From the NCBI GenBank assembly GCA_036768485.1, contig JAVLUZ010000613.1, positions 558,001 through 622,000 on the forward strand: DNA of 64,000 bases, given 5' to 3'. Numbering within the stretch: position 1 is the stretch's first letter; each line of letters opens with the position of its first letter. The stretch is from Mermis nigrescens (taxonomy: Eukaryota; Nematoda; Enoplea; Mermithida; Mermithidae). The translations under genes and the position numbers were made by a program. This document shows positions 27,880 through 64,000 of this stretch, piece after piece. Under the pieces are notes generated by a model. It was not told the origin of the DNA. It searched no databases and was given only the letters and a program-made list of their open reading frames with translations.

Positions 27880-28640
27880 CACGGTTTTTTTTTGTACTCG
27901 GCAAAGATTTTTCCCGATGTACAAAGACTTTTCGGGACCGTCTTTGTACATGTACAAAGATTTTCGGGAAGACAAAAATTGCAAAAAAGGTCTAAAATTT
28001 GAAAAAATTTCGGCGCTTCGCGCCGAAATGAGTAATTGTGTGTTCTATATATCTTTATAATGGCAGAATTTGCATTTCAAAAGTAAAAATGTCAAATCTT
28101 TCGGCGCTTCGCGCCGTTTTGAGACGATTCTTAGTGATTTTAGCCCTTAGAGCCCCAGAAATTAGCTAAAACACACTACGAAAAGTCGAAGAACTCTGTT
28201 TTTGCCACACTAAAGTCGCTGCTATACCATATTATAGTGCCCAAAAATTTTGTGTGTACAAAATGTACAAAGATTTTTAGGAAGACAAAAACTGTAAAAA
28301 GATGTAAAATTCCCACACTTTTCGGTGCTTCGCTCCGAACTGACAAATTATTTGTCCTATATATCTTTAAAATGGCAGAATTTGCATTAAAAATGGAAAA
28401 ATGTCAACATTTTTCGGCGCTTCGCGCCGTTTTCAGATAAGTTTTAGTAATTTTTGGCGTCAGAAACCCATAAATTAGCTAGAATACACTACCAAAGATC
28501 GAAAACCCTGTTTTACCACACTAAAATCGCTACTGTGCTATATTGTAGTACACAAAAATTTGCATGTACAAAATGTACAAAGACTTTTGGGGACCATCTT
28601 TGTACATGTACAAACGGACCTTGTACAAAAAAAAACACTG
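27880..28640. mobile_element. Family A MITE, double-length form (761 bp)
   Basis: Ends CACGGTTTTTTTTTGTAC and TACAAAAAAAAACACTG with an exact 8-bp target duplication TCTCTAGC (27872-27879 and 28641-28648). It contains two successive family units, each with the CACACTAAA/GCTGCTATACCAT-type middle, and three perfect GGCGC-TTC-GCGCC hairpins (28011, 28102, 28415) plus a decayed fourth (28323). The same double form in the other orientation is at 62545-63292. Confidence 0.95.
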
Positions 28641-33837: not shown

Positions 33838-34289
33838 CAGTGTTTTTTTTTGTACACGGTCCGTTTGTACATGTACATAGATGGTCCCTAAAAGTCTTTG
33901 TACATTTCGTACACACAAATTTTTGGGTACTATATATAATATGATACAGTATCGATTTTAGTGTGGCAAAAACAGAGTTGTTCGACCTTTGGTTACGTAT
34001 TTTAGCAATTTCTAGGTTTCTGAGAGCAAATATCAGTAATAATCGTCTCAAAACGGCGCGAAGCGCCAAAAATTTGGCATTTTTCCTTTCAAAATGCAAT
34101 TTCTGAAATTATAAAGATATATAGAACACACAATTGCTCATTTTCGGCGCGGAGCGCCGAGAATTTTTGCGAATTTCGAACCTTTTTTGCAGTTTTGTCT
34201 TCCAAAAAATTTTTGTACATGTACAAAGACGGTCCGCAAAAGTCTTTGTACATCGCGAAAAACCTTTGCCGACCACAGAAAAAACCGTG
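33838..34289. mobile_element. Family A MITE (452 bp)
   Basis: Ends CAGTGTTTTTTTTTGTACAC and AGAAAAAACCGTG; exact 8-bp target duplication TTAGGGAG (33830-33837 and 34290-34297). The insertion is inside LINE3. Hairpins GGCGC-GAA-GCGCC at 34054 and a GGA-loop form at 34145. Confidence 0.95.
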
Positions 34290-34327: not shown

Positions 34328-35408
34328 TAGAGGTGTGCTGTAGGCCCCCGGCCCCGCCGCCGGGGCCGGGGCCTGTAAAAACGATGAAAAATTAATGAAA
34401 ATCGAACAAAATTAATCTTTTTTTGCCAAATTACGCAACATAATATTTATTTATTCGCAAAAAATAAGCTAAATTTCGTTAAAATTTAGCTTAGGCTACT
34501 CTTGTGTTTCGCTTCAGGTAATCTAATAATAAAGATTTGAGTGAGCATTGAAACGATTCGATACATTCTTGAATAGCTTAGCTCAATCAAGAATTTTTAT
34601 TGCGAAAATAAGCACGTTTGACCGATAATTCTTAGACAATAAAGTTTAAAATGCAAGAGACTTTCACCAGTGTCTGTAAATTGTTTTATAAATCGATTTA
34701 TATACTTATGTACCTTAAAAAAATGCTAGGGTACGGCAACTTATTTTATCATCCAGATAGAATTTGTTTGCTTTAATATATGCGATTTTTCACTAATTTC
34801 AGGCGCTGTGCGCCAAATAATAGAGCAAATATCTTCACTTTTGTGTGCTTTTCAAATAATTTTTTAAATGTTATTTCAATTTGATTATGCATGTTCCCTA
34901 ATCTTGGTAAATGATTTTTCGTCGTACAAGCATTTTTCGCCCCTATGATTTTGTTGATATTCTAGAGATAAGTTTTTCAAGCGTGTAGTTAATCTCTGGG
35001 TTACTTATTTCTCGTGCAATGTAATCGTAATCTTTTGTTTTGTACTGTTTTGCTGGTCTATTTCTTTCATCGAATCAGCATAAATACTATAAAAAAGTCA
35101 TATTCTGTTCAGCTTAGCTTATTGTTTTCTATGCCTAACAGCTATATTCACAATTTTTAATTAATTTTTTCTTTGTTTCTCTTTTATCTGCTTATTTTTA
35201 AGTCTTTAATCCATTAAAGCAATATGTAATTGCTTACAATAGTAATACTAAGATGTTAGGTCAGTATAGAAATAATGTGGATGCTTGGTATAGCATGTAA
35301 GTTTAGGGTATATGTTTTGTACAGGCCCCGCTAGGCCCCGGCTCCCGGCGCCGGGGCCCAGGCCCCGGCCCCGGCCCCGGCAAAAAGAGCGGCCCCGGCA
35401 CATCTCTA
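34328..35408. mobile_element. Family C hAT-like element (1081 bp)
   Basis: Ends TAGAGGTGTGC and GGCACATCTCTA, next to blocks of CCGGGGCC. Flanks CTTTTTAG and TTTTTTAG match at 7 of 8. It interrupts LINE3 31 bp from the end of the family A copy. Interior, in opposite orientation, is about the same as 37154-38209 (AAACAATAAGCTAAGCTGAA, CACTCAAATCTT). Confidence 0.93.
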
Positions 35409-35409
35409 T

Positions 35410-36120
35410 TTTTTAGGTATGAGATCAGAACTAATAGTTCGAAGAAGAGAAATAAAAACATTATGCATATCATCCGCTGAAGTACACTGGTTAAATAAAT
35501 CAGGCCGAGAAACAGTGGCTAAGCAAATAGAGATTAATTCGTAATTAGCTTTACGAAAATTTCGATGAAAGAGCACGTTTTTTATCTCTTTTGACCCGTG
35601 AATCTAAAAAACAATAGAAATATGGTCACTATCTGAAAAGGAGGGAACACTTTCACGTTAGTGGCTATGTTATCTGAAAAGAGCAAATTAAAATATTATT
35701 ATTGTGAGTTGGACTACAAATTAGTTGATCTAAACCAGTTGTATAGAACGTATCATAAATATTGTAGTTGGGAGGACGATATGCTAAAATAAATCTGGTC
35801 TAATATCTTTATTGCATAAATCGAAAATTAAGATTTCACTAGCAGGAAAAATGACAGGAATTTTGATAATTTTTAAACGTAATCTGTTACTGACCAAGGC
35901 TATAACTCCACCCCCACATTTACTGAGACGGTCACGACGAAAAACTTAATAACTATCTGTACTGCAAAGTAGGCTATCTGGAATTTTAGGATAAAGCCAA
36001 GATTCACAAAGTATCATCTAGAATTCTTTGCTATTAAGTAAAAGTTTCAAATTACCTAGCTTATTTAACAAACTTCTTGAATTAAAATACAGAACTTTTA
36101 AACGTAAAATATTAAGAAGG
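35410..36120 (-). pseudogene. LINE3 endonuclease remnant
   Basis: Heavily mutated counterpart of the LINE1 endonuclease: plus-strand phrases such as ATATGGTCACTATCTGAAAA (the SDHN region) and CAAAGTATCATC (the ETW region) align with LINE1, but no frame stays open for long. Confidence 0.7.
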
Positions 36121-36180
36121 GCGCGGCACGACTACCTAGATTTTCCGTGAAGCACCAGGCTTTTTGAATTGACAGACGGA

Positions 36181-38293: not shown

Positions 38294-38694
38294 CATACAT
38301 GATTTGGGGGGGGGTTTCATCCCCAGGAGAATTTTCACACCCCCCCACAAAAATTTTTTCACACCCCCAGAATTGGCGATTTTCTGGAAGTTCCCAAAAC
38401 TTTTCTAAATATTTGTCGAAAAGATGCTTTTTAAGCGTTTATAGCTGTCTACTTGCTCAAAAGTGCCAAATTTTAGGCGCTTCGCGCCTTATACTCATGT
38501 TTTGACTATATTTTGTTCAATTTCTTCCAATTTATATTTTTTTTCGAAATGCTTCTATGTTGTTATGCTCTAGAAAGATAGAGCATCGTCAGAAACGCTG
38601 AAAAAAGATGTTTTTGACGCATACCTACCATTTTTGTACCCAAAAAAGGCACCTTACGATTTCAACCCCAGAATTTCCATGCTGTGCATGTATG
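38294..38694. mobile_element. Family F MITE (about 400 bp)
   Basis: Ends CATACATGATTTGGGGG and GCTGTGCATGTATG, as in the better defined copy at 60802-61173. One hairpin AGGCGC-TTC-GCGCCT (38475-38489). The target duplication is not evident here, so ends are approximate. Confidence 0.7.
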
Positions 38695-39579: not shown

Positions 39580-39587
39580 ATTTTTAG

Positions 39588-40100: not shown

Positions 40101-43100
40101 ATGTGGTTATCAACTGTTTTGTACCGCACTTCAGTATTCTTCCATTCACTGCCAAGATTAAACTTCCGGTTTCAAGATGGAAAGTCTGATGCCGGATTTT
40201 GCAGCGATTATTTTCAGGCTAGTATTTATTTCATTATCGTATTCGTACCTATGACATAAATTTACATAGGAAGCGAGGATAGTATTTATTTTTCCTCGTT
40301 TGGAATTTAATGTTGTTTTAACTTAAAAAAACGCCCGATATGGTTCAAAGTGGTCTAAAAATATTAATTTATCGCTAAATTGACAATTTTCTATATTTGC
40401 TTACTGTTAAAAGCAATACAATGCAGTCAAAAAGAGCTAAAAGTGCTTTAAAAAACGCGGCCTATTACATAAGCGCTAGGTCCCGTTACAGCTCTAAAAT
40501 AAACACTCCTTAAAGGTCTGTTTAGGATTCAGTGCCCATGTTATAACACATGACGTAGTCGTATGTTTTGCATTGCTGTGCTGAAACATTTTACGACGTC
40601 CTAGGCAACTCAGCCCTTAAGATACGGTTTAAGGATGTTTATTGTTCAAATTTCATGGCGAGAGTTGTACTTACTTAATATTTATTTATGGGTGATACAA
40701 ACTGGAGCTGGAACCTGAAGCCGGAATTAACCACCGTGCTTTTTGGCCAATAAAAGCAGACTTTTTATTTACAATTTTTAACGGAGAAATAGTCAAAAAT
40801 CGCAGCTGCAAGTTAGTAAAAAATGCGATTACTACCTAAGTACTCAACGCATTACGAAAAACCTATTATGTGCAAGTCAAATTGATGTTTTTATACAGAC
40901 TATCTCTATTATGTATGTATAAACGTTAGTCTTGGTTCAGGAAATCTTATTTTTAATTGATGAAAAATACACAGGCTAGGGTCTACGACGTTTCGGCGCC
41001 GCCGTTTTGGCGCAAGTAACTTATAAATTATTCTAATTAAATCAATTTTGAACCAATTTTAAAATAAATTATATATTCAGAAAGCAGATACTACAAGCTA
41101 CAAAATGGCATATTGTTCATTTCGATTCAATGACTATTCATTTGTGTACGACTGAAAAACTGTAGAAGATCCAGTGTGCATTTAATCATCTCACTAAATT
41201 CAAACGTATTCTAAAAGTAATTTATACCATCACGTAGAGGATTGAATGGGCTTTCAGAATCTGTATTATACTTTAATCATAATTGAAATGTAAATAATTA
41301 ATAATACTACAAAGAGTGTGGCGCCAAAGCGGCGGCGCCAAAACGTCCCATTCCGCATAGGCTACTTTATGTGCTACTAGCTTGGCTTGCACTTTGTCTA
41401 TGCATGTAAGAACGTAAAATTGTGGAATTTTCTAAATTAGCCAGAACTAAACGTTTAGGGCATTTCCGCTGTTTTCGTCACACATTGGGGGTGAGAGGGG
41501 TGGTCCGAGACTCAAGTCACTGTCAGACGATTTTTGGTGAAAGCCTTTTAAATTTATTTGACCTCAATTTTTACTATGGTAAAAGTGCACTTAATATTAG
41601 AATTTCATGAAATGATACAGTATTTTTGAATGCAAGCAAGAGTAAATAGACAAACTTTCACTATAAGACATGCATGTAACAGCTCAGGCTGGAAATTTGG
41701 GTATGGGTCCGAGGACATTTTTAGAATAAGGGAGGTTAGACGACTCCAATTTTAGGCCAAAAATTGAAAAAACGCCTAAAAATAGCCAAAAAAATCGCAA
41801 GTTTTTGCCAAAAATGGGGGAGGGTGGTCCGAAATTTTCTGACTTTGTTTCAGGGGTGTGGGGCGTAAAAGCGTGGGTGGGTGATATCCTAAAACCTGAA
41901 AGTAGCCAGAAAGCGCAAGTTTTCGCCAAAAATTGGGGAGGGGTAGGTCAAAATTTTCTGACTTTGGGGAGGGAGGAGTGTGGAGAGGACGTCCAACCTT
42001 GGGTGGAGAATTTTCCAAAGCTCCCTGTTACACATATGGTTTTCGGCTATTTTTAGGGGGGGGAATGACTACCAATTTTTGGCCGAAAATCGCAAAAAAA
42101 GTCCCTAAAAATAGGCAGGAAATCAGGTTTTCGCCAAAAATTGATTTTGGCCACGGTTTTTTTGTACTCGACAGATTTTTCCTGATGTTCAAAGACTTTT
42201 GAGACCGTCTTTGTACGTGTACAAAGATTTTTGGGAAGACAAAAATTGCCAAAAAGGTCTAAAATTCGCAAAAATTGTAATTGTGTGTTATATATATCTT
42301 TATAATGGTAGAAATTGCATTTCAAAAAGGAAAATGTCAAATTTTTCGGCGCTTCGCGCCGTTTTAAGACGATTCTTAGTGATTTTTGCCCTTAAAGACC
42401 CAGAAATTAGCTAAAATACACCACCAAAAGTCTAACAGCTGTGTTTTTATTACACTGAAATCGCTACTGTATTATATCATAGTACCCGAAAATTTGTGTG
42501 TACAAAATGTACAAAGACTTTTGGGGACCATCTTTGTACATGTGCAAACGGACCTTGTACGTACAAAAAAAACACTGGTTTCGGCTGCCATATTTATACA
42601 ATATAGTAAGAAGTCATCAATATGAGAAAGAAGCAAATAAAAAAAGGAAAAGGAAAATTAGGGAAAAAAAGTAAATAAATAGATAAATAAAACAGCAAAT
42701 ACTAAAAAAAGAAAAGAGAAAAAATTGAACGAAAGAGAAAAAAAGAGAAGAAAGAAAGACAGATATAGAGGTGCATCATGCTATTAGTAAGAAAGAAACA
42801 AAAAGGACGCGTGAAATAGCACAAGTGTACCTAAAAAAATATATTATGATGGAAAATAAATGAATAAATAAAAATCATTGTAAACCTACACATGAAATAC
42901 TGCCGTACCTGGCTTGTTCAATCATGTGAGGAAATACAACGAGTAAACAAAAAGTATGAGCTAGATAGGAATAGAATGTATAAGTCAATATGCACCTACT
43001 CTTGTATTCTCGGAATGCAGCGCATTGCGAAAAAATATATAAGCGCACGCGGAAAAATCTAAGTCAATATGCGCCTACTCTGATATCGGTAATGCACTAC

Positions 43101-50400: not shown

Positions 50401-53400
50401 CCCTTGCGAGCCGTTTATTAATTTTTCTTGCTTTATGTCTTACTAATATTGCCCCAAAATTACGCTTAAAGCTAAAATTGCGATATTTTCAGGGATCATA
50501 CTGTTTCAAAATATTGAAAAAATGTCTCTGAATAACGATAAAAATTTGGTAAGTATAATTTATGTTTTTTTATGTTATTTTCTTAATCAGTAAACATTTA
50601 CCTATACTTTGGAAGTTGCCCTGAATTGTTTATATGTGTTAAATGGTAAGTAAAAAACAAGCTTTTATTTTATTGCATATCTCTTTCATTGCGCCGCTTC
50701 CCAAAATAATTTCATACCTAATTCGTATTTACATTTTTCGACCTTATGTTTGCTTTTCGTACCGTATAATTAAAGATCCGTTTTCAGATTCGGCGCTCTT
50801 GCTCTTTTTATATTTATTATTTGCTGGTGTTTGGTTGGAGCAACTACGGCCTTCAACATCGTAAGCTTATTTTTGCAACGATTGATCTATTGCGTATTTA
50901 ATGCTGACCTTCTGGTCACAATGTCTTTCGTTATTTTAGCTTTTATCCGACGTGTGCAGAACACCCATTACAATGCTAATACCTTTTCTGACCAATGATT
51001 TAAGCAGGGGCTATGCTAATTTCTTAATCTTACAACGAATCTGCTCAATTCTTATGGGCTGTTTTCTATGCTGATACTCTTAACATTTTATATTTTCCAC
51101 TGGAATACGTAAATACGTAATATAATAATAATAATAATGTAATAATAATTAATAATAAGGATTAGCTAAGCACATGTAATATCATAGCTGAAGAATTCGC
51201 ATTGTTTAGCGGAATTTAACTCATAACTCGGATTATTCGATTTTCACCCGATAAGACCGACTTGATTTCGATTATTTGATTTTTTTTATTTTCCAGGCTA
51301 TGTGCTTGATCGATTCGTGAATAACCTCAATGATTCGAAAATTTTTTCCGCTCTGAATCCCTTACAGCAAGTGAGTTTCGTATCTCTAGAATGGTGCATT
51401 TAACTCAAGCGGCTATATGAGTCTTGTGCACACATGGGCGTGGGTGGAAGTTTGGGGGGGGTTGTAACCCCAGAAGTTGAAAAAACCCCTGCAGATGGCT
51501 GTAGACCCCAAGAATTCTATTTTTAGTAACATTTTTGGCGAATTACCCTATCCCGATTTGGTTGCTGCCTATGTATGGTCTTGCGCTTTTGTTCAATTAA
51601 TTTTACTTCTTATTTGCTTTCGTGATTAATACAGGAAATTTTATAAAGGATAATGTCAAGGTCGGACCTATTGACTGACTTTTTGATTAACAAGAGATTT
51701 TACGTTAATAATTAAGTTGCTAGAAGGACCTTTTTCAGGACTCTTCCTCTAAAGTCATTTTTGTTATTTCAAGACTTGAAATATGTTATTGAAAAATACA
51801 TTGATTTTTTTCGATTAAATATATTTTTTTATGCTCCACCAAAAAATCATGATATCAGTCACGTTCAGTAGCGGATCTAGGATTTTCCTAAGGTGGTGGT
51901 ACCTCAACTTTGCCAAAAACAGTCGAAAATAGGTCCAAAAATTTGCCTTTCATGTGCGAAATAGCGTCTTTTCGGCGTTTTGTGTTGTTTGTTTAATTTA
52001 AAATCACTGTTGGCGCAACGTTTTTTCGAAAAATTCTAAAATTTTAGACAATTTTGCTCTAAAAATCATTAAATTTTTGATTTTAGCGAAAATATGGCGC
52101 GAAGTGTCGGGAAATTTGTAAAAATATAAAGCGGAAGAACCTTCAGAAACTACAATCACTGTTCGATCTTCCTGTACATATTTATAGTGTTTGACGCAGA
52201 ACGTCGAAAATTTTGAAAAGGTATGCTTGAAAGTAGAAGCAAACTATGGTAAAAAAGCTGTTTCGGCTCTTGAAATCGTCCAAAACCTATTCCCTAAGCA
52301 AAAATATGGCTTCTGGACCGCCGAGAAAGCAAATAAATTTTAATAATAGGTATTATCCGGTGCGGAGCGCCAGAAAAATTTGAGAAATTAAGATCCTTGA
52401 CCAAATATTGCAAATTACACATCCTTTCTTTTCCTCGCCAATTATTTTTGGCCAGTGGGGAGGGAGCGGCCGTCTTCCCTCCGCCCTCTCCAATCCGCCC
52501 TTGGTCACGTTAAGGGTTTGCTTTAGGAGTTACAGTACGTCCAAGCTTCAGTTGAACACGTTCCGGCTATTATGAATGGCATTTCGTGTTCGTTGGGTCA
52601 AAGTGCTGGCGAAACATCTGCTTCAGTCGTCCAGGTAAAAACCTTGTTACTCACCTTCCATTTTTCGGCGCGCCGGATACATACTAATTTCCTACATTGT
52701 TCGCTTTTTAAAAAGCCTCTGTATGCAGTTTGGATCGAAAGAGATGCCGATATTTTCCGGAGAACTGCGTCAAATAAGTTATTGTTTGTTTTTCTGTTTT
52801 AAATCCTATAAAAGTGTAATAATGCAATTTTGCCACGTAAAATTCTTTTCTGCATAACGTTATATGCAGTCTTCACCAGTGCTTTTTGTACTCGGCAAAG
52901 ATCTTTCCCGATGTACAAAGACTTTTCGGTACCGTCTTTGTACAGGTACAAAGATTTTTGGGAAGACAAAAATTGCAAAAAGGTCTGAAATTCGAAATGA
53001 GTACATAATTGTGTGTTCTATATATCTTTATAATGGCAGAAATTGCATTTCAAAATGAAAAATGTCAAATTTTCGGCGCTTCGCTCCGTTTTTAAGACGA
53101 TTCTTAGTGATTTTTGCCCTTAGAGACCCATAAATTAGCTAAAATACACTACCAAAAGTCGAACAATTCTATTTTTACCACACTAAAATCGCTACTGTAC
53201 CATATTATAGTACCGAAAATTTGTGTGTACAAAATGTACAAAGACTTTTAGGGACCATCTTTGTTCATGTATAAACGGACCTTGTACAAAAAAACACTGT
53301 ACCCACGAAGTTTCGAGATATTAACGAATCTACCTATTCCGGGTACGCCCCATCATAAAATGCAGAAACTTGCAAATTCTGTCATTATAAAGATGTATAG

Positions 53401-56400
53401 AACAGACAATTACTGATTTCAAAGCGAAGCGCCGAAAATTTTTTTGGAATTGTAGATTTTTTCCAATTTTTTGTCTTCCCAAAAATCTTTGTACATATAC
53501 AAAGACGGCCTCGAAAAGTCTTTGTACATCGGGAAAAATCTTTGCCGTGTACAAAAAACTGTGCTCCTCCCCAACAATATCCCCAAGATAATGAGTGGGT
53601 ACGACCATACATTTGCCAAAAACTTGATGATTTTCTGGCAAACAGATGCAATTTTTCTTCTTTTTTCTATGCATTATCCTACTTGTCAAAATTTTTCTAC
53701 GATTAAGGGGCTGCCCCTCCCTCTAAATAGGGTCCTGCCCATACGTGATCTGGGTGGGGGGTTTGAAGGGGGCTTTCACCCCCATGCAAAAAGTTTTCAT
53801 TCGTTCCCCCCGTAAAAATATTTTAACTCCTCCCCCAAAAGTCGCGATTTTCCTGAAAAAAATCGTAAGAAACGTCCGGGTTTAAACGTTTCTAGCGATC
53901 TTTTAATTCGAAGTGCCCATTTTCGACTACATTGCGTTTAATTTTCTTGAATTTTTATGTTTTTATCGTCTGCGAGCCGCTGATTTCTTTTTTGTGCAAA
54001 AAAACTTCGATTTTTTTTGTACAATCGAAAATCGGCCAAAAACTGCCTATACTTTGTGTACAAAGATGCATAAAGATCGCTCCAAAAATCTTTGTACGAG
54101 CCTCAAAACCTTTGTCTCGTACAAAAATAAAAAATAGTGCTACGAGTTCCATTAGAAACGCCCAAAAGTTATGTTTTTGACGCGTTATCCAGCGTATTTA
54201 AGTTCGGAAAAATTCCTTTAAAGTTATAAGAAAGAGTTTATGTACCCTTTCCCGAGCTTATGTATTTAACAACGTTTTTCCATTGTCATAAGTTTAGCTC
54301 TCTATTAGGTATTGTCTCTGTGCCAACAAATTCAACGTGATTTTTACGACGCGTTGGAAAGATTGGCAGTCGTCAGCGATTTTGTGGACGTTTCGACCGA
54401 TATTGAGGATATTTCTTTTTTAAACAACGAAATTTGCAGATTGACGAGGTCAATCTGCGTTTTTAAACGATTTTTATGTTTAAATTTTCGGTTATGTTTT
54501 TCTCCGAATTAAATGTTCTAAAAAAATATGAAGTTTTCGCTTTTTCTATTCATTTTGCTTTAGCATTAGTTCATTAGCTGCTTTTATTCATTTAATTTTT
54601 TGCTCCTTTCTTCCGATTGTCTTACCAATTGACCTATGCTTTACTTTTGTATTTTTTGTTGAAAATGCATGGAATTAAATCAGAACGACTATGCGTCAAT
54701 TAATATTTCTGTTAAGAAATCAAGGTATAGCTGCAGTTTATACATTTTGTTATACAAAAATTCGCTGAATGGTTGAGAAACGATTTGGAAGTGTAGTTTG
54801 AGGTTGATACGCTTATAACCATAGGTGGGCGGCACGTGAATTCTGGGGGGGAGTGCAAGATTTTTCAAAGGTTAAAAATGGCCTTTAGAATGGTGATATG
54901 GCGAAAAACACCATTTTCAACGGTTTCTCATCGAACACTATCCATTGGCATCAAAAAATTGCGAAAAAACCAAAAAAATTTCAAAACTCGAATTCTGGGG
55001 GGTATTTTGGTTCCCGGGGGGTGCATATTTCCTCCCCGAATCCCCCACGCCCAGATGTGCTTGTGACTACAAAACGGTTCAGAATTTTTGTTGGGAGGAG
55101 TAGTAAAGATTTTTTGTATGGAGAAGGGGTAAACAATATGTTTGGCACAATGCCCCTTTGTCATGTACAAAGATGGTACCCAAAAGGCTTCGTACATTTT
55201 ATACATGTTAATTGTAGGGCTCGATAATATTGTACATTAACGCTTTATGTGTAATAAAACTGGGTTTTTCGACCTTTGTCACTGTAGTTTAGCCAGTTTT
55301 TAGGTTTCTATACAACGATGGAAAATAATATTAAGAAATTGGACGGTTTTACCTTTTTAAATGCAATTTTTGCAATTATCAAGATATATAGAGCAGGCAA
55401 TCGCTAATTCCTCGCGATGTAAATTTTTTTAGGAATTTTGATCCTTTCACAATTTCGCCCTGCCAAAAATCTTTGTGCATGTCCAGAGACGGTTCCAAAA
55501 ATTCTTTGTACATTGGGAGAAAGCTTTGCCGATTACAAAAAACCGTGATGTATATTTCACACGACGTTCTATTTCTTGCTAAAAATAGCAAAATAGTACC
55601 TGAATTGACCTTAAACGCAAATATCTCTATTTTTTTCGAAAGTCGTGAAGGGATTAAAATGTCTCAAATTTTGAGGGGGTGGAGACGGCTAGCTTTGTGT
55701 GGAGGGATACCTCATCTTTCTGATTGCATGCCCGCGTGTTGAATAGTTACGATCGGACATGCACAGCATTAAAATTCTGGGGTAGGAAACTGGAAACCGA
55801 ACAAATTTTCTAAAGCGCCTTTTCTAAGCTGAAAATCATAGCCATACGCGTCAAAAACATTAATTTTAGCGTTTCTCACAATGCTCTATCTTTATAGAAC
55901 GCAAAAATAAAAAAATTCCGAACAAATATGAAATAATTGAACAAAAAATAGTAAAAACGGAAATTTGACTTTTGGGGCGAATGCCAAAAACGCTTAGAAA
56001 TGCACTTGTTCTACAAATTATTTTGGAAAATCATTAATTTCAAAGGGGGTGAAAAATTTTCTGAGGAGGAGCATACATGCACATAGGGAGGAGTGCACTC
56101 GCGGATTTAGAGGGGCGGTCGCCCCTGTTGTCAAAAAATATTTGGGCACAATGAAGAATATGTGTTTATTTTTCGATGATTTCAGCCAATTTACTCATTT
56201 TTGACATTTACTGTTTTTATTGGCGCTCTAAAAAACTACTTTTACATCAGGAGAATATTCTTAGTTCTTTCAATGATTTCTCGAGTATCGTCTGGCGCTT
56301 TGTGTCGATTTTTGCATTAATTTTGCGAGTTATTCATAAAACAAATTCGGAATCTTTTTTCGTACATATAAGAAATAATTTCTGCTTATCAAAAGATGGC

Positions 56401-59400
56401 AAAAACGGCTAGTTTTAGCATAATTGCCTAATTTTTCGTACAATTTTTGACACCTTTAGGAAAATTTGGGCCCCCCCTGTCAGAAAATCCTGGATCCGCC
56501 ACTGGAGGGATGTGAGGAGTATTATCCCCTACTCTCGCTGAAGGGTGCGAGAAGTAGGTACTGTCGGCTTAATTCGGCCTAAAATAGTGTATTTGCAAGT
56601 GAATTCGTGCTGATTTACCGAATAAATACAACTACTTACTAGGGATGGACCGGTTCCAAAATTTTCAATTTTTCGGGTTCGGGTCCGGGTCTTAGCAAAT
56701 GAAAATTTCGGGTCCGGGTCTTAAAAAATAAAAATTTCGGGTCCGGGTCTTAAAAAATAAAAATTTCGGATCCGGGTCCGGGTCTTCAGCATAGGTGGGC
56801 GGCACCAAAGTTCTGGAGGGGGGTGCAAGATTTTTTCAAAGGTAAAAAATGGCCTTAAAAGTGGTAGTATGGCGAAAAAACACCATTTCTCAACGTTTCT
56901 CATCGAGCACTACCATTGGCATCAAAAAATTGCGGAAAAAACGAAAAAAATTTTCAAAAATTGAAATCTAGGGGGTATTTCGGTTTCTGGGGGGTATTTT
57001 GTTTTTTGGGGGGTATTTTGGTTTCTCGGGTGGGGTGCATACCCCCAACCCCCACGCCCAGGTATGGTCTATAGCCTTGGATCCGATCGGATCCGAGTCC
57101 AACCTGCTTGTATAATTTCTATATATACAAGCCATAGATATAAATACTTACTTTAAACATGGATTTCTAGCTGGTAGTACGATCGCTGGGTTTCACATGA
57201 CCTAAACATGCTAGGCTATCATTCTGTAACACGTAATTTACATTATATTTTTATTCAGAAAGAGGTTCATCCTATCCAGGAACATTGCAGACACGAGCAA
57301 GCCCGTTTTTAGGAGTTTGGGAGGAATCGCTAAAATAAAAAATGCAAATGCCTTTGTAAGCGATTTTACTTGATAAAAAGACCATTTTCGACATATTTTG
57401 TGTTTTTAAATAATTTAATCATTATTGTGGGTCAATGATATATTCTGATTAATTAAAAGTTCTAAACTCAAAGCAGAAACAAAAGGAAATGGCAATAATT
57501 TATAAAAACGGTGAAAAGCGCCTGAAATTTTTGGCGCTTTCTGCCCTTTTCAACTCAATTTTAAGCTGTGAAGGCAGACAATAAAAGTATACGAGTATAT
57601 CCGACATTTTTCCGATTTCTGTCCTCATGTAAAACATTTGCACATGTTCAGATAGAGTTACAAAAAATGTTTATACTGATTGAGACTGATTACAAAAAGC
57701 CAGGGTCAAATATGACAAACTTTCTAATAATGTTAATTATCATTATGTACATATGTATGGGCTATCTTCAGCCTCTTAAAATCCGTTTTAGATGTATAAG
57801 AAATGGATTAAAGTCAATTTAAAAATGCATTTTACAGAGTGAAACATCGGGTTCTTCCTCGATCACGATTTGTGCATGTGTTTAATCACTATCAAAGCTG
57901 ATTGATCAGTTCTTTTTGTACAAATGGCCCACAAGTCTTTGCATATTTTTTAAATAAAAATTTTAGGGTACTATATGATACATGAACGCGTTCTGTGTGG
58001 TAAACTGGGATTACGAACTTCAGTAGCGGAGTTTAGCCAGTTTCTGGGTTACCAGTGATGAAAAATATAATAACTTAAACATACGGCGCGAAGCGCCGAA
58101 AAATTTGATGACTTCACCGTTTCCAATCAGAATTTGCGGCCTTTCTACTGCACCAAGCTCTCTTGCGGACCTTTCGTCATCTAAAAATCGCCTGACGGTA
58201 CCACCTGATTTTTTTACAACCTGAGGTAGGGTATGCCCACGTGTGATAAGCTATACTGGAAATATATCTGATGCGACGCACCTAAAATATTCGACACGTA
58301 TCCCTTCAAGCTCAATTTTAGCTTTCTGAATGTAAGCAATGCAGTATTTATGAATGGCGCGAAGCGCCAGAAAATTTCGGCATTTTTATTCTTTTTAGAT
58401 CAATTTTGCACGTTTCTGAAGGAAACAATGTGATAAGTAGATCTGATGCGAAGTGCCGATAATTTTAGACGAGAGATAGAAAATATTATCTCGCGAAAAC
58501 TTTTTTTAGAAAAAGAATAAAATATGTATTGAAGATCGTTATTTAGATTGAATTAATGATGCGAAGCGCCTAAAATTCGATTATTTTCACGCTGGGGAAC
58601 GTCTTAGTATTTAATTATGCTATCAATTTTATTTTTTGAACACGTCAGCATCATTATTATTTGTAGACTTCGTAAGAACTTACTTGAGTCCTTTAAAGCC
58701 ATACCTACATCAGGTGCAGACTCCGTGAGCTTCTCAAGATAATGAGTCATATTACTTAGCAAGACAACACACAACATTTTAGGAATGCGAAAAATTGCAC
58801 GCACTAAAATAGTTTTGCTTATTGAAGATTTTTCAAACTTATGACCTTTCCCATTGAATGCAAAAAGTATTTGACACGGGGCCGTGAAATTCGAGAAAAT
58901 CGGGTCCGGGTCCTGCAACTTCCAGATTTCGAGTCCGGATCCGGGTCCAGAAAAATCGTCGGGTAGTGCCGGGTCCGGGTTTGTGGACTCGGTCCATTCC
59001 TACTACTTACATATAAATCCTGGATTTCACCCCTCTCTGGCCACATTGACCTCGTGCATCTATAGGAGGGGTGAAAAATTTCCTGGGAGGGATGAAAACC
59101 ATACACGCAACGGCTCGAAATTAGGGATGGGGGTCCCCGGCGATTGGGGGTGGGGGGTTAATGACGACAATTTTCGGTCAGAAATGGCAAAAAACATCTA
59201 AAAATAGTGTCAAAAAGGTAATTTTTTTGCCAGAAATGGGGGAGAGTCAAAATTTTTCTGACTTTATTGGATAGGAGGACGTCCAACTTCGAGTGGGAGT
59301 GAGATGATCCCTCCCAATTCCTCTGTAAGATGTATGGTGAAAACCCCCTATCTCTCTATGACCATACCTGGGCGTGGGGGGATTTGGGGAGGGGTATGCA

Positions 59401-62400
59401 CCCCAATTTTTAAAACTTTTTTCCCGCAAATATTTGATGCCAATGGATAGTGCTCAATGAGAAACCTTGAAAAATGGTGTTTTTCCGCCATACCACCATT
59501 TTTAAGGCCATTTTTGACCTTTAAATAATCTTGCACCCCCCAGAATTTTGGTGCTGCCCACGTATGTCTATGACCATTTATGGTTGTTATGCATTTTCAG
59601 CTTGTCCGCGTTTATTCTGCTTTGCGGTACGTTGTTTTCCGCATCGCTGCTCTTCCTAATTTTACTTGCGCTTAACCGGGCATGGCGCTGCCGTGGTCAA
59701 GGAACCAACGGCGTCTCAACCGGGCGATACGTGGGTGCCGGATCATGCGACGTCGACGATTTGTACGTCAGTGGCGGCGTTTCTGCCGACGCTGATCCAT
59801 TTCTGTTGGCCAATCATGACGAAGGGATTGTGCCGGCTGAATTCTACGGCACGCACATTTCTAATCCTCGAGCCAATCAGCGACGAGCGATCGGCCAGTA
59901 AGTTCGACTTTTATGATTCATAACGCTGCCTTATGCATATTTCTTTAATTCACTCTGTATTCTGTAAAAAAATGCGCGCTTCCAACTTTGATAATTATTT
60001 CGAATGGCAAAGTTGCGTCACGAAACAGTCACGTGCTTGTCCTCATGCATTCCGTGAGTATGCTGTGGTCGATTTCAATTTTCTGGGAATTAAGCCTGCA
60101 CGCCACACATGCACATAGGGGGCTGAGGGGGGGGGGGTATTACCCCCCTCTGAGGGTCAGCTAGACCGGTACTGTCCGGCGATTTTGAGCAAACAGGTCT
60201 TGTTCTGCATCATTTTTGACATCAAAATCAGTAAAAATGTCAAAAATTTTCCTGCGCTTCGCGCCAGATTAGTACTTTTAAGTACTTTTTACTCAAAATG
60301 CGCCCAAAATTTATAAATTTTTGCATTTTTTAGTGTTAAAAGTGATATAATGCAGTCAAAATGGACTAAAAAGGCTTTTAAAATGTGTTATTAACACGAA
60401 AAAACGTTTTATAGGCTATTTTGACCATTTTGATAATTAAAACAGCAAAAAAATCGTGAACGTTATATTTACTGTTTTAGATTTTTGGCATTTCACCCCC
60501 CGCCTGCCGACCCTGACCTTGTGCACCTATGGTGCACGCCGTAGTGAATCAAAAAGCGTGCCTGGTGAGGCAAAAACCAAAGACAAGTCTACAAATTTTT
60601 ATTGTCGTTGTAGCAATGGGGAGGAATTCTTCAAAACTAGCGACTATGCATTTAGTGAATGAGTTTTGTTGCTAGTAGAACGTAAAATTTGTTTCAAAAA
60701 TACATGCGAGTTTCGCATTATCTTGAAATAGTGTGTTGTGATTAGAGGACATAATTACATTAAAGGAATTAATAAAACTATATACGTAAACGGATGGCGT
60801 GCATACATGCATAGCATGGGAATTCTGGGGCGGGGAAGAGTTGAAAATTTAAAGTGCTTTTTGGGCCTAAACATGGTAGGTGCGCGTCTTCCTAGAGCAT
60901 AAAAACATTTAAAAATTTCAGAATTAAATTGAAAAAGTCAAATGAATTGAACAAAATATAGTCAAAACATGAGTATATGGTGCGAAGCGCCGAAAATTTG
61001 GCTTTTCTAAGCAATTAGATAGCTAAAAATGCTTAAAAAAGCACCTTTTCTACGAATTTTTTGAAAATTTGTAGGAGCTTTCGGAAAATCACGAATCCTG
61101 GGGAAAAGGTGAAAAACTTTTTGCGGGGTGAAAATTTTTTTTTGGCGATGAACCTTCCCCCATATCATGTTTGATGGCGTGGCGATTTCGCCACATATGA
61201 GCAAGGGGGTGTGGGGGTTTAGATCCCCAGAATCTGCAAAACTCCCCGCAAAAATCGATAAGCCCCCAGAATTGAATTTTTGGCATGTTTTTTTGGGATT
61301 TTCGCTGATTTGGACCTCTACAGAATTTGACTGCTGCCCGTGTATGGATCTCGCTTCTTATTCGGGAGAGCCACTCCTGAACAGGGTTGGTGGACACAAT
61401 GGGTTTAAAAATTTACCCCATACTTGACTATTCGAGATTAGCTACTGTGTTCACCTGACCTGGGCGGATTCAGAGCGGGTCTGGCGCGGCTGCTTTTTAT
61501 GGGATTATGAAGATCGAATTTATATTTTTCAATGCTTTTCGTAATTGTTAAAGGAATTCCTCGTAACGGAAATAATTATAAATACAGGAGAAGGGCGAAA
61601 ATCATAATTTAAGCGTAAAGCACGGATTTTCAAGACAATTATCCTTATTTTAAGAAAAAATGGGGTAGATGTCGCCTTCTTGTCTGGAAATAGTAATGCT
61701 CACACCTGGACGTTGGGGGTATGAACCCCCCCCGAGAAATCAAAATACCCCCTTAGAATTCAATTTTTAAAATTTTTTTGTTTTTTTTTCGCAATTTTTT
61801 TGAGGCCAATGGATAGTGCTCGATGAGAAACGTAGAAAAATTGTGTTTTTTCGCCATATCACTATTTTTAAGGCCATTTTTGACCTTTGAAAAAGTCTTG
61901 CAACCCCCAGAATTTTGGTGCTGCCCACGTATGGTAATGCTGCGCATTCATTTGCATATATGCTGACCCGCGTTCAGGGGGACTACGAAGACACAAGTTA
62001 CGAAAGTGTTTGTAGATTTAATGATGTGAATTGAGTTATCTAGATACTCGTAGTTTAAAATTAGATTTGTTTTATTCCATTATGAAGTAGAGTAAAAATG
62101 TTTAAGATTCTTTCCAAAATTTTTGCTCACCTTCGTATAAAGCTCGCCCTGATACGCTCAAAAATGCCTGTTTTCAACTAATGGTTGTCGAAATATTTGA
62201 CCACAAAATCTCCCCCCTAAATAAAATCCTGAATACGGGCCTGCATGTATGCATAATTTTTCAGCGTTTTTTACCATTATCTGCTGCTTATATCTTTTCG
62301 AATACGCATTTTCCAAAACGTCCCTTTACCTCCAAAGCCCACTAAATGCTAGTATGGATTGTCGATCAAATGCATTTATGTATGTATTTTTCATTTTGAA

Positions 62401-64000
62401 TACCCAGACACCCTGCTTTTTTGTTCCGAAAATTCGCTCTTTTTTGTACAATGACAAATCGGCCGAAAACTGCCTACACTTTATGTACAAAGTTAAAAAA
62501 CTATTCCCAGGCACGTAGCTGGCCTTTTGAATTTCGGGGGGGGGCAGTGTTTTTTGTACAAGGTCCGTTTGTACATGTACAAAGATGGTCCCCAAAAGTC
62601 TTTGTACATTTTCTACACGCAAATTTTTGTGTACCATAATATAGTACAGTAGCGATTTTAGTGTGGTAAAACAGGGTTTTCGATCTTTGGTAGTGTATTT
62701 TAGCTAATTTCTGGGTTTCTGACGCCAAAAATTACTAAAAATTATCTGAAAAGGGCGCGAAGCGCCGAAAAATGTTGACATTTTTCCATTCTAAATGCAA
62801 ATTCTGCCATGTTAAAGATATATAGGACAAATAATTTAACAGTTCGGCGCGAAGCGCCGATAATTCAGCGAATTTTACACCTTTTTACAGTTTTTGTCTT
62901 CCTAAAAATCTTTGTACATTTTGTACACACAAAATTTTTGGGTACTATAATATAGTACAGCAGCGATTTTAGTGTGGTAAAAGCAGAGTTCTTCGACTTT
63001 TCGTAGTGTGTTCTAGCTAATTTCTGGGTCTCCAAGGGCAAAAACCACTAAGAATCGTCTTCAAAACGGCGCGAAGCGCCGAAAAATTTGACATTTTTAC
63101 TTTTGAAATGCAATTTCTGCCATTATAAAGATATATAGAACACACAATTACTCATCCGAAATTTTTTTGAATTCTAGACCTTTTTTGCAATTTTTGACTT
63201 CCCAAAAATCTTTGTACATGTACATACAAAGACGGTTCCGGAAAGTCTTTGTGCATCGGGAAAAATCTTTGCCGAGTACAAAAAAAACACTGGGGGGACT
63301 AAAATTTTGAAGTCAGGTATCCCAACAACTACTCGCAGATAGACAAAATTAATGCTGTTTTTGAGCATTTCTCAGCGAGATCTACCTAATGAGAAGACAA
63401 TTCAAAAAAATTAAAAAATTAATTCTAATTCGAATTGTCTTTTAGAAGGAGGTCGTATGTAATGACCACACAAATGATTTCTCAATATTCTATTCAAGCT
63501 AGACCGTGCTGAAAAATTATTTAACTTGTTTTATACTCAATTCTGGTATACTGCAAACAAGACGAATTTAAAAAATAAATAATTCTACGTTAAGTGTCGG
63601 AAAATTTTGACACATTGACCGTGTTTACACAATACTTGTGCTGTTTGGAAGACAAATGTTATTTCTAATCAATAAATTGGGTGCGACGCGCGCGAAAATT
63701 TTGGACATATTGGCTCGAAAATATGCTGAAATACATTCCGCCGGTGTTTCAAATAGACTTCAAGGATTTGCACTATTTTTCTATCGGGGGACCCTTGTAA
63801 AAAATATTCGTACCTACTTTCGAAATTTGGGGGGAGAGGCTAGTCGCCGCTTCCTTCACATCTACGTGCCTGTGAATACCTACTCGTATGTACATTTCGA
63901 TATCAATAATTGCACTGAAAGTCATAAAGAGCATTTTTCAGACCAGAGCCTAGCTCACGGATCAGCGAAACGATTTCGGGCAACGGAATATGGCGCGCTA
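40101..64000 (+). CDS. Tweety-family (TTYH) membrane protein, multi-exon, 3' end beyond the window
   Basis: Exons: 40101-40217, 44282-44454, 46017-46128, 46440-46541, 46596-46744, (one not found), 50788-50860, 50940-51009, 51297-51370, 52527-52634, 54309-54448, 59601-59897, 63942-64000 (partial). All known junctions keep phase. About 490 residues so far, close to the family's usual 450-550. Tweety proteins are plasma-membrane proteins with five helices; they were first described as volume- or calcium-linked anion channels, and recent structures make a lipid role possible. Matches: N-terminal HSLPRLNFRFQ, first helix (LVLWACVPVLICIILLVV), basic loop, second helix with a CC pair, a coiled extracellular part, fourth helix, SDVCRTP, last helix followed by NRAW and an acidic tail with DADPF. 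The exon for helix 3 should lie between 46745 and 50787. First and eighth introns appear to start with GC. Introns are full of MITEs. Confidence 0.75.
40980..41353. mobile_element. Family J MITE with GGCGCCGCCG ends
   Basis: Left end CGACGTTTCGGCGCCGCCG and right end CGGCGGCGCCAAAACGTCC are near-perfect inverted repeats (TTTTGGCGC/GGCGCCAAA extends them). About 370 bp, AT-rich middle, in the first intron of the tweety-like gene. Target duplication not resolved. Confidence 0.75.
41690..42060. repeat. Interspersed repeat, family K, several copies or internal repeats
   Basis: TTTTTGCCAAAAATGGGGGA and GGTGGTCCGAAATTTTCTGA occur here and, changed, again 130 bp later (TTCGCCAAAAATTGGGGAGG). Related to 27540-27850. 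Confidence 0.6.
42152..42577. mobile_element. Family A MITE (426 bp)
   Basis: Ends CACGGTTTTTTTGTACTCG and TACAAAAAAAACACTG. Flanks ATTTTGGC and GTTTCGGC match at 6 of 8. One perfect hairpin CGGCGC-TTC-GCGCCG at 42347. Confidence 0.9.
42960..43160. repeat. Short tandem duplication, about 90 bp
   Basis: AAGTCAATATGCACCTACTC...TGCAGCGCATTGCG (42983 on) repeats as AAGTCAATATGCGCCTACTC...TGCACTACATTGCG (43060 on). Confidence 0.7.
43188..44150. repeat. Direct repeat pair around an inserted repeat
   Basis: 43188-43365 and 43970-44150 are the same sequence (TTTTCGTCCACAAAAAATCA, CATTGCGCATATGT, CTTCAGGCCATTTAATTC). Between them lie a copy of the 27184-27372 repeat (43575-43755) and a reverse copy of the 26240-26501 repeat (43790-43990). 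Confidence 0.75.
44635..44820. repeat. Interspersed repeat, family K
   Basis: AAAGTCAGAAAATGTTTGCC, GGCCGAAAATTGCGGG and AGCCGTTACATGTATG as in the 27.5-kb copy. Confidence 0.6.
44830..46010. other. Intron of the tweety-like gene, no clear feature
   Basis: 45100-45450 has unusual short alternating phrases (GGACCAAAGC, GGAGAACCACTT, GGGCCAAACC) and TTGGACGGGG at both sides (45111, 45431), possibly a short element. Otherwise nothing recognised. Confidence 0.35.
46017..46744 (+). CDS. Tweety-like exons 3-5: end of helix 2 and coiled extracellular region
   Basis: Exon 3 (46017-46128): SSLFACLLANEMANRG, VQLYHRRTHDTVKK. Exon 4 (46440-46541): IDSINETLYGRVANDLELLK, LQNLRSLQQKYL. Exon 5 (46596-46744): GADSWVLRITEIKNEIANAS, LESVNSAMEDFSLFFTHLEN. 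Heptad-like leucines and acidic residues fit the helical extracellular domain that follows helix 2 in tweety proteins. N-glycosylation sequons are present (NET, NAS). The intron between exons 4 and 5 is only 54 bp. Exon 5 ends GAAAG|GTAGAT, phase 2. Confidence 0.75.
46829..47074. mobile_element. Family B MITE
   Basis: Ends CAGGTGGGCGGC and CACCTTGGTATG; flanks GTGGTAAA (46821-46828) and ATGGTAAA (47075-47082), 7 of 8. Confidence 0.88.
47080..47889. other. Intron, no exon confirmed
   Basis: Searched for the missing helix 3 exon. GIFLWFMILQRTIFTFLI at 47535-47590 is hydrophobic but lacks family residues and convincing splice sites. The end TTGCATAGATGCACAAGGTC near 47700 resembles family H at 60.5 kb. 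Confidence 0.3.
47890..48828. mobile_element. Family C element, old copy (939 bp)
   Basis: CAGAGATGAAC at the left, TATCTCTA at the right, interior shares GCAATTACATGATGCTTTAA and TTTCATGCACTG-type stretches with 37154-38209 in the same orientation. Flanks ATAGAAAT and TTAGAAGT, 6 of 8. The G/C blocks are mostly lost. Confidence 0.75.
48840..50780. other. Intron region with a MITE-like repeat; missing exon expected
   Basis: 49210-49565 has inverted ends (GGGCTTACGCAGGGGG and CCTGCGTACGTTCCGCCCC). From 49985 to 50650 there are several possible small exons (SRLLIFLALCLTNIA near 50405 is the most hydrophobic), but none keeps phase on both sides, so I did not assign helix 3. Confidence 0.4.
50788..51370 (+). 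CDS. Tweety-like exons: helix 4 and following extracellular loop
   Basis: 50788-50860: FGALALFIFIICWCLVGATT, AFNI (helix 4). 50940-51009: LLSDVCRTPITMLIPFLTND, LSR; the SDxCxxP follows helix 4 as in known tweety proteins. 51297-51370: YVLDRFVNNLNDSKIFSALN, PLQQ. The second junction is AGCAGGG|GCTATG with acceptor TTTTCCAG|GCTATG: the phase is kept only with a GC donor. Because GGCTATG occurs on both sides, the exact cut is ambiguous, but the joined codons read SRGYVLD. Confidence 0.72.
51429..51577. mobile_element. Family B MITE, short copy
   Basis: Ends CACACATGGGC and GCCTATGTATG; flanks GTCTTGTG and GTCTTGCG, 7 of 8. Only 149 bp. Confidence 0.85.
51866..52503. mobile_element. Family G hAT-type MITE (638 bp)
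   Basis: Ends CAGTAGCGGATCTAGG and CCAATCCGCCCTTG; exact 8-bp target duplication GTCACGTT (51858-51865 and 52504-52511). It ends 23 bp before the next tweety-like exon (52527), so its target duplication is part of the splice-acceptor region. Confidence 0.92.
52527..54448 (+). CDS. Tweety-like exons: second extracellular segment
   Basis: 52527-52634: ELQYVQASVEHVPAIMNGIS, CSLGQSAGETSASVVQ. 54309-54448: VLSLCQQIQRDFYDALERLA, VVSDFVDVSTDIEDISFLNN, EICRLT. The DFYDAL with a Cys shortly before resembles the family's loop before helix 5. Ends GACGAG|GTCAAT in phase 2 and joins the last-helix exon to give SLSAFILL. Confidence 0.75.
52877..53299. mobile_element. Family A MITE (423 bp)
   Basis: Ends CAGTGCTTTTTGTACTCGG and TACAAAAAAACACTG; hairpin slightly broken (CGGCGC-TTC-GCTCCG at 53074). 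No clear target duplication. Confidence 0.85.
53355..53572. mobile_element. Family A MITE, partial
   Basis: Right half only: TGCAAATTCTGTCATTATAA, AAGCGAAGCGCCGAAAA, then TGTACATCGGGAAAAATC and CAAAAAACTGTG. Confidence 0.75.
54000..54150. repeat. Short relative of family A
   Basis: GTACAATCGAAAATCGGCCA and CTGCCTATACTTTGTGTACA; the same phrase occurs at 62440-62490. Confidence 0.55.
54830..55059. mobile_element. Family B MITE
   Basis: Ends CATAGGTGGGCGGC and GCCCAGATGTG; flanks CTTATAAC and CTTGTGAC, 6 of 8. Confidence 0.85.
55160..55548. mobile_element. Family A MITE, diverged
   Basis: TGTACAAAGATGGTACCCAA, TCAAGATATATAGAGCAGGC and TTACAAAAAACCGTG follow the family order; the hairpins are lost (CCTCGCGATG). 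Confidence 0.7.
55754..56095. repeat. Family F-related repeat
   Basis: CGGACATGCACAGCATTAAA and TTTTGGGGCGAATGCCAAAA match parts of 60802-61173 and 38294-38694; the right end is uncertain because a family G element follows. Confidence 0.5.
56096..56504. mobile_element. Family G hAT-type MITE (409 bp)
   Basis: Ends CACTCGCGGATTTAGAGG and CCTGGATCCGCCACTG; flanks GAGGAGTG and GAGGGATG, 6 of 8. The CAGTGGCGGATCCAGG end is a common hAT form in animals. Confidence 0.85.
56790..57066. mobile_element. Family B MITE nested in family E
   Basis: Ends CATAGGTGGGCGGC and GCCCAGGTATG; flanks GTCTTCAG and GTCTATAG, 6 of 8. Internal tandem of GGGGTATTTTG-type units. Confidence 0.87.
57895..58110. mobile_element. 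Family A fragment
   Basis: TTCTTTTTGTACAAATGGCC, TGTGTGGTAAACTGGGATTA and a perfect hairpin CGGCGC-GAA-GCGCCG at 58084-58098. Confidence 0.7.
59110..59340. repeat. Interspersed repeat, family K
   Basis: GGTCCCCGGCGATTGGGGGT, TCGGTCAGAAATGGCAAAAA and TTTTTCTGACTTTATTGG, as in the other K copies. Confidence 0.55.
59363..59566. mobile_element. Family B MITE (204 bp)
   Basis: Ends CATACCTGGGC and GCCCACGTATG; exact 8-bp target duplication TCTATGAC (59355-59362 and 59567-59574). It ends 34 bp before the helix 5 exon. Confidence 0.95.
59601..59897 (+). CDS. Tweety-like exon: helix 5 and cytoplasmic tail
   Basis: LSAFILLCGTLFSASLLFLI, LLALNRAWRCRGQG (helix 5 and the basic stop-transfer with R-A-W typical of the family), then DVDDLYVSGGVSADADPFLL, an acidic stretch with DPF found in the same place in tweety C-tails, then GTHISNPRANQRRAIGQ. 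G/C content is higher than around it. Donor GGCCA|GTAAGT, phase 2. Confidence 0.82.
60105..60532. mobile_element. Family H element (428 bp)
   Basis: Flanked by an exact 8-bp direct repeat TGCACGCC (60097-60104 and 60533-60540). Ends ACACATGCACATAGGGG and CCTTGTGCACCTATGG are only partly inverted (CATAGG core). Contains GCGC-TTC-GCGC at 60254. Confidence 0.8.
60802..61173. mobile_element. Family F MITE (372 bp)
   Basis: Ends CATACATGCATAGCATGG and CCCCCATATCATGTTTG; exact 8-bp target duplication ATGGCGTG (60794-60801 and 61174-61181). Hairpin GGTGC-GAA-GCGCC at 60980 (one G-T wobble). Confidence 0.93.
61192..61346. mobile_element. Family B MITE, short copy
   Basis: Ends CACATATGAGCAAGGGGG and GCTGCCCGTGTATG; flanks GATTTCGC and GATCTCGC, 7 of 8. 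Lies 10 bp after the target duplication of the family F copy. Confidence 0.85.
61701..61933. mobile_element. Family B MITE (233 bp)
   Basis: Ends CACACCTGGAC and GCCCACGTATG; exact 8-bp target duplication GTAATGCT (61693-61700 and 61934-61941). Confidence 0.95.
62545..63292. mobile_element. Family A MITE, double-length form (748 bp)
   Basis: Ends CAGTGTTTTTTGTACAAGG and GAGTACAAAAAAAACACTG. Reverse-complement counterpart of 27880-28640 with the same two-unit order. Perfect hairpins at 62754, 62845 and 63067. Flanks are G-runs (GGGGGGGG and GGGGGACT), so the duplication is only partly clear. Confidence 0.93.
63300..63930. other. Intron, no feature recognised
   Basis: AT-rich sequence before the last tweety-like exon. 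A G-rich patch GGGGGGAGAGGCTAGTCGCC (63829) resembles MITE ends, but no partner is seen. Confidence 0.35.
63942..64000 (+). CDS. Tweety-like tail exon, cut by the window edge
   Basis: Acceptor GCATTTTTCAG at 63931-63941; with the two bases carried from the previous exon it reads QPEPSSRISETISGNGIWRA and stays open to the end. Pro/Ser-rich as expected for the cytoplasmic tail. Weak by itself; supported by phase and composition. Confidence 0.55.

Follow-up and report, generated by a model that had tools for sequence, protein, structure and literature searches.

A palindrome shared by hAT-like MITE families of Mermis nigrescens resembles a protein-binding site more than a hairpin conserved for its folding

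MITEs are usually tied to a transposase by their terminal repeats. According to parts of PMC8097297, a preference for CGG or CGC is usual where BED and Hermes-type domains are combined in one protein, and subterminal regions are matched by the motifs of four hAT proteins. For Hermes, parts of PMC10368747 describe two repeats that form a quasi-palindrome and are cooperatively bound by two BED domains, an AAGT site that needs AT-rich sequence after it, and end-proximal repeats that need exact spacing. Interior BED sites can be mutated with ~70% of the activity retained, and in cells Hermes depends on an internal feature, of yet unidentified nature, that lies no more than ~220 bp from its ends (parts of PMC10368747). 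While hAT MITEs and subterminal repeats are thus known already, the case presented here is unusual in that a single internal module, with 47,266 exact cores, recurs in families with different ends. The 13-mer at its core was found in none of the papers searched, and no shared module of this kind is reported in the titles and abstracts listed, most subscription journals being outside this coverage. The motif resembles a shared binding site for a protein more closely than a hairpin conserved for its folding. We tentatively propose that it may be an internal duplex site of hAT-like MITEs, which would aid transposition by being read by a host factor or by a domain of a hAT transposase.

The window, i.e. 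the whole stretch of 64,000 nucleotides that was analysed, is eukaryotic and contains LINE reverse transcriptases; among the matches listed, the only named nematode relative of the LINE is one from Meloidogyne, with 34% identity. We found 11 exact copies of GGCGCGAAGCGCC, six in GAA and five in TTC orientation on the + strand (starts in Table 1). All of them had been recognised in the initial annotation, ten with a start one base too low, and the seven variant sites listed there are present in the window with one or two mismatches each. One of these variants, 60253, is a member of a further family (c5), and two carriers had been missed, 13206 and 52359, both of family c3. The exact 13-mer did not arise in any of 60 simulated versions of the window (first-order Markov). 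Across the 524-Mb genome (assembly of 523,963,438 bases in 860 contigs) 23,501 + 23,765 = 47,266 exact copies were counted, compared with 2 + 4 = 6 copies when the pattern was read backwards. For the published assembly of M. nigrescens, parts of PMC10989877 give 867 scaffolds and 440.21 Mb of repeats (83.98%). A sample of 264 kb was composed of the window and 20 stretches of 10 kb each from contig C11, and four more stretches brought it to 304 kb. In the 304 kb, GGCGCGAAGCGCC is the most frequent 13-mer with at least 60% GC (38 copies), and the 264 kb contain 31 perfect, 36 one-mismatch and 37 two-mismatch sites. Taken as a whole, the earlier observation holds as to the sites, which are even more numerous than reported, but not as to its rule for the outermost pair, and its view of the families as unrelated has to be given up in part (see below).

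Twelve delimited MITE-like elements, together spanning 6.4 kb, contain 16 of the 17 window sites that have no more than one mismatch, a fraction that is descriptive and no independent enrichment test, as the element intervals were drawn around known sites; the exception is the site at 27305.

Table 1. Motif-bearing elements of the window, and one site beyond them (positions in the window)
Feature	Position	Strand	Ends, flanks and basis	Motif sites
A-type MITE copy, inside older A-like copy	26579..27025	+	CAGTG..CACTG ends, perfect 8-bp duplication TTTTGTAC, alignment	26791 and 26882, both decayed
One-mismatch site beyond delimited elements	27305..27317	-	surroundings recur at 43557-43752 (blastn 86% over 196 nt)	one mismatch
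A-type MITE, two units	27880..28640	-	perfect 8-bp duplication TCTCTAGC	exact 28012, 28103, 28416; 28324 with two mismatches
A-type MITE, one unit	33838..34289	+	perfect 8-bp duplication TTAGGGAG	exact 34055; one-mismatch 34146
A-type MITE	42152..42577	-	flanks match 6/8, alignment	exact 42348; second site deleted
A-type MITE	52877..53299	-	alignment, duplication not seen	one-mismatch 53075; second site deleted
Element F, diverged A relative	57900..58640	+	masked alignment to A, z 26.2	exact 58085, 58356; decayed 58445, 58558
A-type MITE, two units	62545..63292	+	CAGTG..CACTG ends within G run, duplication unresolvable, alignment	exact 62754, 62846, 63068; last second site deleted
E-type MITE	38294..38694	-	CATACATG..CATGTATG ends, duplication not seen	exact 38476, outer A..T
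E-type MITE	60802..61173	+	perfect 8-bp duplication ATGGCGTG	one-mismatch 60979
c5-type MITE	60104..60531	-	flanking 8-mers match 7/8	one-mismatch 60253
c3-type MITE	51866..52503	+	perfect 8-bp duplication GTCACGTT	two-mismatch 52359
c3-type MITE	13069..13674	-	flanking 8-mers match 7/8	one-mismatch 13206

The elements resemble hAT-type MITEs in being short and non-coding as far as seen, in their terminal inverted repeats (CAGTG..CACTG, CATACATG..CATGTATG and CAGTGGCGGATC..) and in 8-bp target-site duplications in several copies, which are perfect in at least one copy each of A, E, c3 and c5. Among the 11 window elements delimited by their ends, the duplication is perfect in five, matches at 7/8 positions in two, and is poorer or unresolvable in four; the borders of F, which is not delimited by ends, are approximate and were placed by eye. 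For copies with both ends found in the 264 kb, inspection by eye gave perfect duplications in 5/16 E copies (one in the window), 2/6 c3 copies (one in the window) and 1/3 c5 copies, as well as 0/6 in c4, where the best match was 7/8. What distinguishes these elements from hAT-type MITEs as known is the internal palindrome with its tail, common to families with different ends.

When the sites of the 264 kb were grouped by their flanks with the motif masked, 25 groups resulted, the six largest of which were aligned: E, the second site of A (A-H2), the first site of A (A-H1), c3, c4 and c5 (32, 27, 23, 7, 7 and 5 rows). The ends of the families are unlike, being CAGTGTTTTTT in A, CATACATG in E, CAGTGGCGGATC in c3, CAGGCCCGTATCC in c4 and CATAGGTGCACAAGG/CATGTGTG in c5, and the core consensus equals GGCGCGAAGCGCC in five of the six groups, with c5 differing at the last base. 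A palindrome common to MITE families with different ends, as described in the initial annotation, is thereby borne out. To which extent these families are otherwise related was assessed on 264-kb consensuses with motif and tail masked (15 pairs, 100 shuffles each). Four pairs exceeded z 3, namely A-F (26.2), E-c4 (9.3), c3-c4 (3.8) and E-c5 (3.1), and 11 stayed below, including A-E (0.4), A-c3 (0.6), A-c4 (1.0), A-c5 (2.7) and c3-c5 (2.9). The term "unrelated" is therefore apt for A versus E, for which the motif is the sole detectable commonality, and does not apply to F, which is a diverged A. By consensus alignment, E and c4 are related outside the motif.

Relationships of this kind would fit the main rival of an internal duplex site, shared descent without present function. 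Here the motif would be a remnant of one old lineage or of exchanged pieces, conspicuous as a GC-rich stretch within AT-rich DNA. The status of F as a diverged A, the kinship of E and c4 and the weaker c3-c4 and E-c5 links point in this direction. On the other hand, A is not detectably similar to E, c3 and c4 outside a masked stretch of ~30 nt (z 0.4-1.0), although five of the six groups have the same core consensus. We regard shared descent as a possible explanation, though a somewhat doubtful one.

The shared unit exceeds the 13-mer by a one-sided AT-rich 3' tail, a feature absent from the initial annotation. In the 304 kb, 81 sites deviate by no more than one mismatch, and they fall into 22 left-flank clusters. 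In 16 of the 22, a tail composed of AAA, up to two A/T and TTT directly follows the palindrome on its 3' side, compared with 0/22 for the mirrored left flank. A reading as a terminator was rejected, as four T adjoin the palindrome on the TTC strand in only 1/22 clusters; at gathering score the window contains no known RNA family, and no tRNA was found in it. The number of sites per element ranges from one to four, with more than one in A, F and c3. For the ten window elements of A, E, c3 and c5 with ends set, the distance of the motif to the nearer end is 131-217 bp, which is unsurprising by itself in elements of ~400 bp; the spacing thus varies and is not fixed as that of Hermes LE-STR1/2.

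Conservation of the core was evaluated in members found by their flanks alone. In the 304 kb, core mismatches amounted to 0.92 versus 2.03 expected in A-H1 (24 of 27 members with motif), 1.05 versus 1.55 in A-H2 (21 of 32 with and 11 of 32 without motif) and 1.89 versus 2.39 in E (27 of 32 with motif). The 40 kb outside the seeds gave 1.80 versus 2.45 (A-H1, n=5), 1.25 versus 1.25 (A-H2, n=4) and 0 versus 1.33 (E, n=1), and E members whose flanks diverge by 20% or more had 3.50 versus 3.48 expected core mismatches (n=8). By composition-matched draws in the 264 kb, the core is less divergent than the flank in A-H1 (P 0.007), A-H2 (P 0.002) and E (P 0.004), but not significantly so in c3 (P 0.32), c4 (P 0.75) and c5 (P 0.10), and both this and the preceding test may slightly favour the core, with seeds of at most one mismatch and the best register taken. 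We read these sequence comparisons as pointing to a modest constraint in copies that spawn others, followed by free decay. Shared descent would account for cores that mostly diverge about like their near flanks and for a decay that appears free, given the numbers of sites with 0, 1 and 2 mismatches (31, 36 and 37); the low core divergence in A-H1, A-H2 and E speaks against it.

The seven bases at the centre of the motif are those of d(GCGAAGC), a minihairpin known to be exceptionally stable. The initial annotation read the motif as a selected DNA or RNA hairpin, with the folded strand being recognised or used in transposition. This interpretation stands as far as the shared palindrome and its predicted folding are concerned: for single-stranded DNA, -7.2 kcal/mol was predicted for the 15-mer, -11.4 for the A-H2 23-mer and -10.3 for the TCC..GGA form. 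Pairing selection, in contrast, found no support. The outermost pair, said to change on both sides, is C..A at 34055 and G..G at 62754, so that nine of the 11 exact window copies pair; among the 31 perfect sites of the 264 kb it is Watson-Crick in 24 and not in seven, three of the latter being T..G. Using 122 sites of the 304 kb that were validated by their tail, we counted eight Watson-Crick double changes in the inner five pairs versus ~4.8 expected by partner shuffling (smallest single-pair P 0.14), paired cells per inner pair remaining within two of the shuffle expectation; as the palindrome is nearly symmetrical, the reversed control of this test is contaminated in part. For stem pair 3-11, changed forms of the 13-mer are GGDGCGAAGCGCC, GGCGCGAAGCHCC and GGDGCGAAGCHCC. 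Eight of the nine both-sided changes in the 122 sites are Watson-Crick, but a G-C pair in which both bases undergo a transition necessarily stays Watson-Crick. The outer pair of the same sites gave 7 versus 5.8 in shuffles (P 0.35), and compensated pairs were found in 0/37 two-mismatch variants of the 264 kb.

Some observations do lean to pairing. Across the 22 clusters, positions -1/+1 pair in 13 versus 9.9 expected cases (P 0.075) and positions -2/+2 in 11 versus 7.9 (P 0.10). Of the 4,542 sites in the genome at which both outer bases had changed, the first 100 contained A..T six times versus 2.3 expected (2x2 Fisher P 0.009), a value confounded by families. A T..G outer pair is common in E copies, which means that subfamily history can generate an outer-pair signal and which is itself at odds with a hairpin. 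Also, the loop is more divergent than the stem in E (0.198 versus 0.153) and c3 (0.190 versus 0.114) in the 264 kb, whereas both are equal in A-H1, A-H2 and c4 and the order is reversed in c5; over the 122 sites, changes per position are 15.0 in the stem and 15.3 in the loop. The weak outer-pair excess and the loops of E and c3 thus favour a hairpin, while the lack of a pairing excess in the 122 sites and of compensated variants argues against it, and we consider a selected hairpin improbable. In the minihairpin and the motif the seven bases are shared, but here there is no evidence of selected folding, and the case calls for caution in that a perfect, well-folding palindrome is not necessarily selected for folding.

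Deletion of the palindrome is clearly elevated only in A-H2, where it affects 7/27 rows, compared with 0.010 on average and 0.07 at most in other segments. In E the palindrome is deleted in 5/32 rows (4/31 distinct ones, one stretch being counted twice in the E group), yet another E segment reaches 0.19; the remaining groups gave 1/23 (A-H1), 1/5 (c5), 0/7 (c3) and 0/7 (c4). The stem of A-H2 is the longest, and its deletion junctions vary from row to row. The data suggest that the A-H2 palindrome was extruded and lost, and its frequent loss there is a further argument against a hairpin kept for folding.

A family with both motif-bearing and motif-less copies might also result if a very small palindrome, mobile in its own right, were inserting into AT-rich MITEs, and this would agree with the sharp left edge of the motif and its AT-rich surroundings. 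The model for this would be the mobile GC clusters of yeast mitochondria, which resemble the present case as many GC-rich palindromes in AT-rich DNA (parts of PMC4478555); here, however, the palindromes are nuclear and lie within DNA transposons, and clean empty sites were not seen in the sample. Within this sample, the junctions of motif-less A-H2 copies vary by copy, as deletions would rather than one empty site. Since hAT-like elements also hold 16 of the 17 window sites, a mobile palindrome is very improbable.

Another possibility is a site for a host transcription factor, through which MITEs may profit from S-phase activity or disseminate E2F-type sites. The E2F consensus is TTSSCGCS, and the motif contains TTCGCGCC, which we take to be a fit to this sequence. 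In Brassica, E2F sites have reportedly been amplified by MITEs, similarly a case of a protein-site-like motif multiplied by such elements; it differs from the nematode-like genome analysed here, in which the whole palindrome and its tail are kept and the site is a putative one. For the worm, an E2F/LIN-54 composite motif is described in parts of PMC3093354. An E2F-type site would leave the other arm of the palindrome to be explained, as GCGCC is also kept, changes per position being similar in both halves of the 122 sites. We therefore see only a slim chance for this explanation.

An internal duplex site would be a cis-acting unit consisting of the 13-bp CGC-rich dyad GGCGC-GAA-GCGCC and the 3' AT-rich tail. 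We infer that a protein would read it as double-stranded DNA, and this could be a hAT transposase, through its DNA-binding domain, or a host factor that aids hAT transposition. Elements keeping the site would be copied and their copies would decay afterwards; the ability to fold would be a consequence of the dyad, and it may cause the deletion of the latter. The ratio of 47,266 copies to 6, the location of 16/17 window sites in MITE-like elements, the perfect 8-bp duplications, the one-sided tail, the core mismatches below expectation in flank-found members of A-H1, A-H2 and E, the similar rates of change in stem and loop and the analogy to the hAT and Hermes sites described above are all in favour of a duplex site. 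Arguments against it are the non-significant conservation of the core in c3, c4 and c5, the absence of core conservation in the A-H2 members of the 40 kb outside the seeds and in the E members with strongly diverged flanks, the existence of motif-less A-H2 copies (11/32 by flanks) and the variable distance of the motif to the ends, unlike the exact spacing of end-near Hermes sites. The result on interior Hermes sites, together with the lack of constraint in the small families, made us somewhat more hesitant about a duplex site than we would otherwise have been.

With Hermes/CGGBP-type subterminal repeats (parts of PMC10368747 and PMC8097297) the motif has in common a dyad or quasi-palindrome, a CGC-rich sequence, an AT-rich neighbour and more than one site per element (here in A, F and c3). 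It differs in that one strict 13-mer, putative as a site, recurs across families and at variable spacing, with 131-217 bp between it and the nearer end. A more far-reaching version of the duplex site, which we regard as rather unlikely, is that one module of 25-30 bp (dyad plus AT tail), 130-220 bp inside the ends, would be required in cis by many families of hAT MITEs, irrespective of the terminal repeats they have, via a common transposase domain or host protein. If this is true, the module would suggest itself as a candidate for an internal feature of the type on which Hermes depends in cells, and it would supply a concrete sequence for the internal requirement reported in parts of PMC10368747. 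A conserved internal site across different ends would represent a second layer of recognition besides the terminal repeats, and its sharing could help explain which MITEs amplify.

A prokaryotic or viral origin of the motif was rejected: a 23-mer has 0 matches in genome_contigs, and matches of an 18-mer, GGCGCGAAGCGCCGAAAA, in viral contigs are read as convergence. There are 15 such contigs, 13 of which share one related context, CTCCT..palindrome..AAATTT. The same palindrome followed by an A/T run thus occurs in an unrelated setting. In the two contigs whose ORFs were examined, L004 (7640-7657) and L005 (5742-5759), GGCGCGAAGCGCCGAAAA lies just ahead of an ORF of 619-620 amino acids that looks like a large terminase.

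Several other repeats were noticed. Near its ends, family A has palindromic repeats of its own around TGTACATGTACAA (e.g. 28573-28614 and 62568-62609); with 48 copies, TGTACATGTACAA is the top 13-mer of the 304-kb sample, and these may be A-specific subterminal repeats. A block recurring in further repeats, CTATCCATTGGCATCAAAAA, was found at window positions 46913-46995, 54904-54986 and 56876-56958, with 26 copies of its 13-mers in the 304 kb, and in E and c4 the motif is preceded by a block judged similar by eye. At 34460-38051 the window contains a long inverted repeat in three pieces, with arms of 405, 216 and 192 nt that are 94-95% complementary and GGCCCC-rich tips, flanking ~1.9 kb. Trinucleotide arrays are present at 5167-5409 (ATC x81) and 8782-9192 (AAT x~137).
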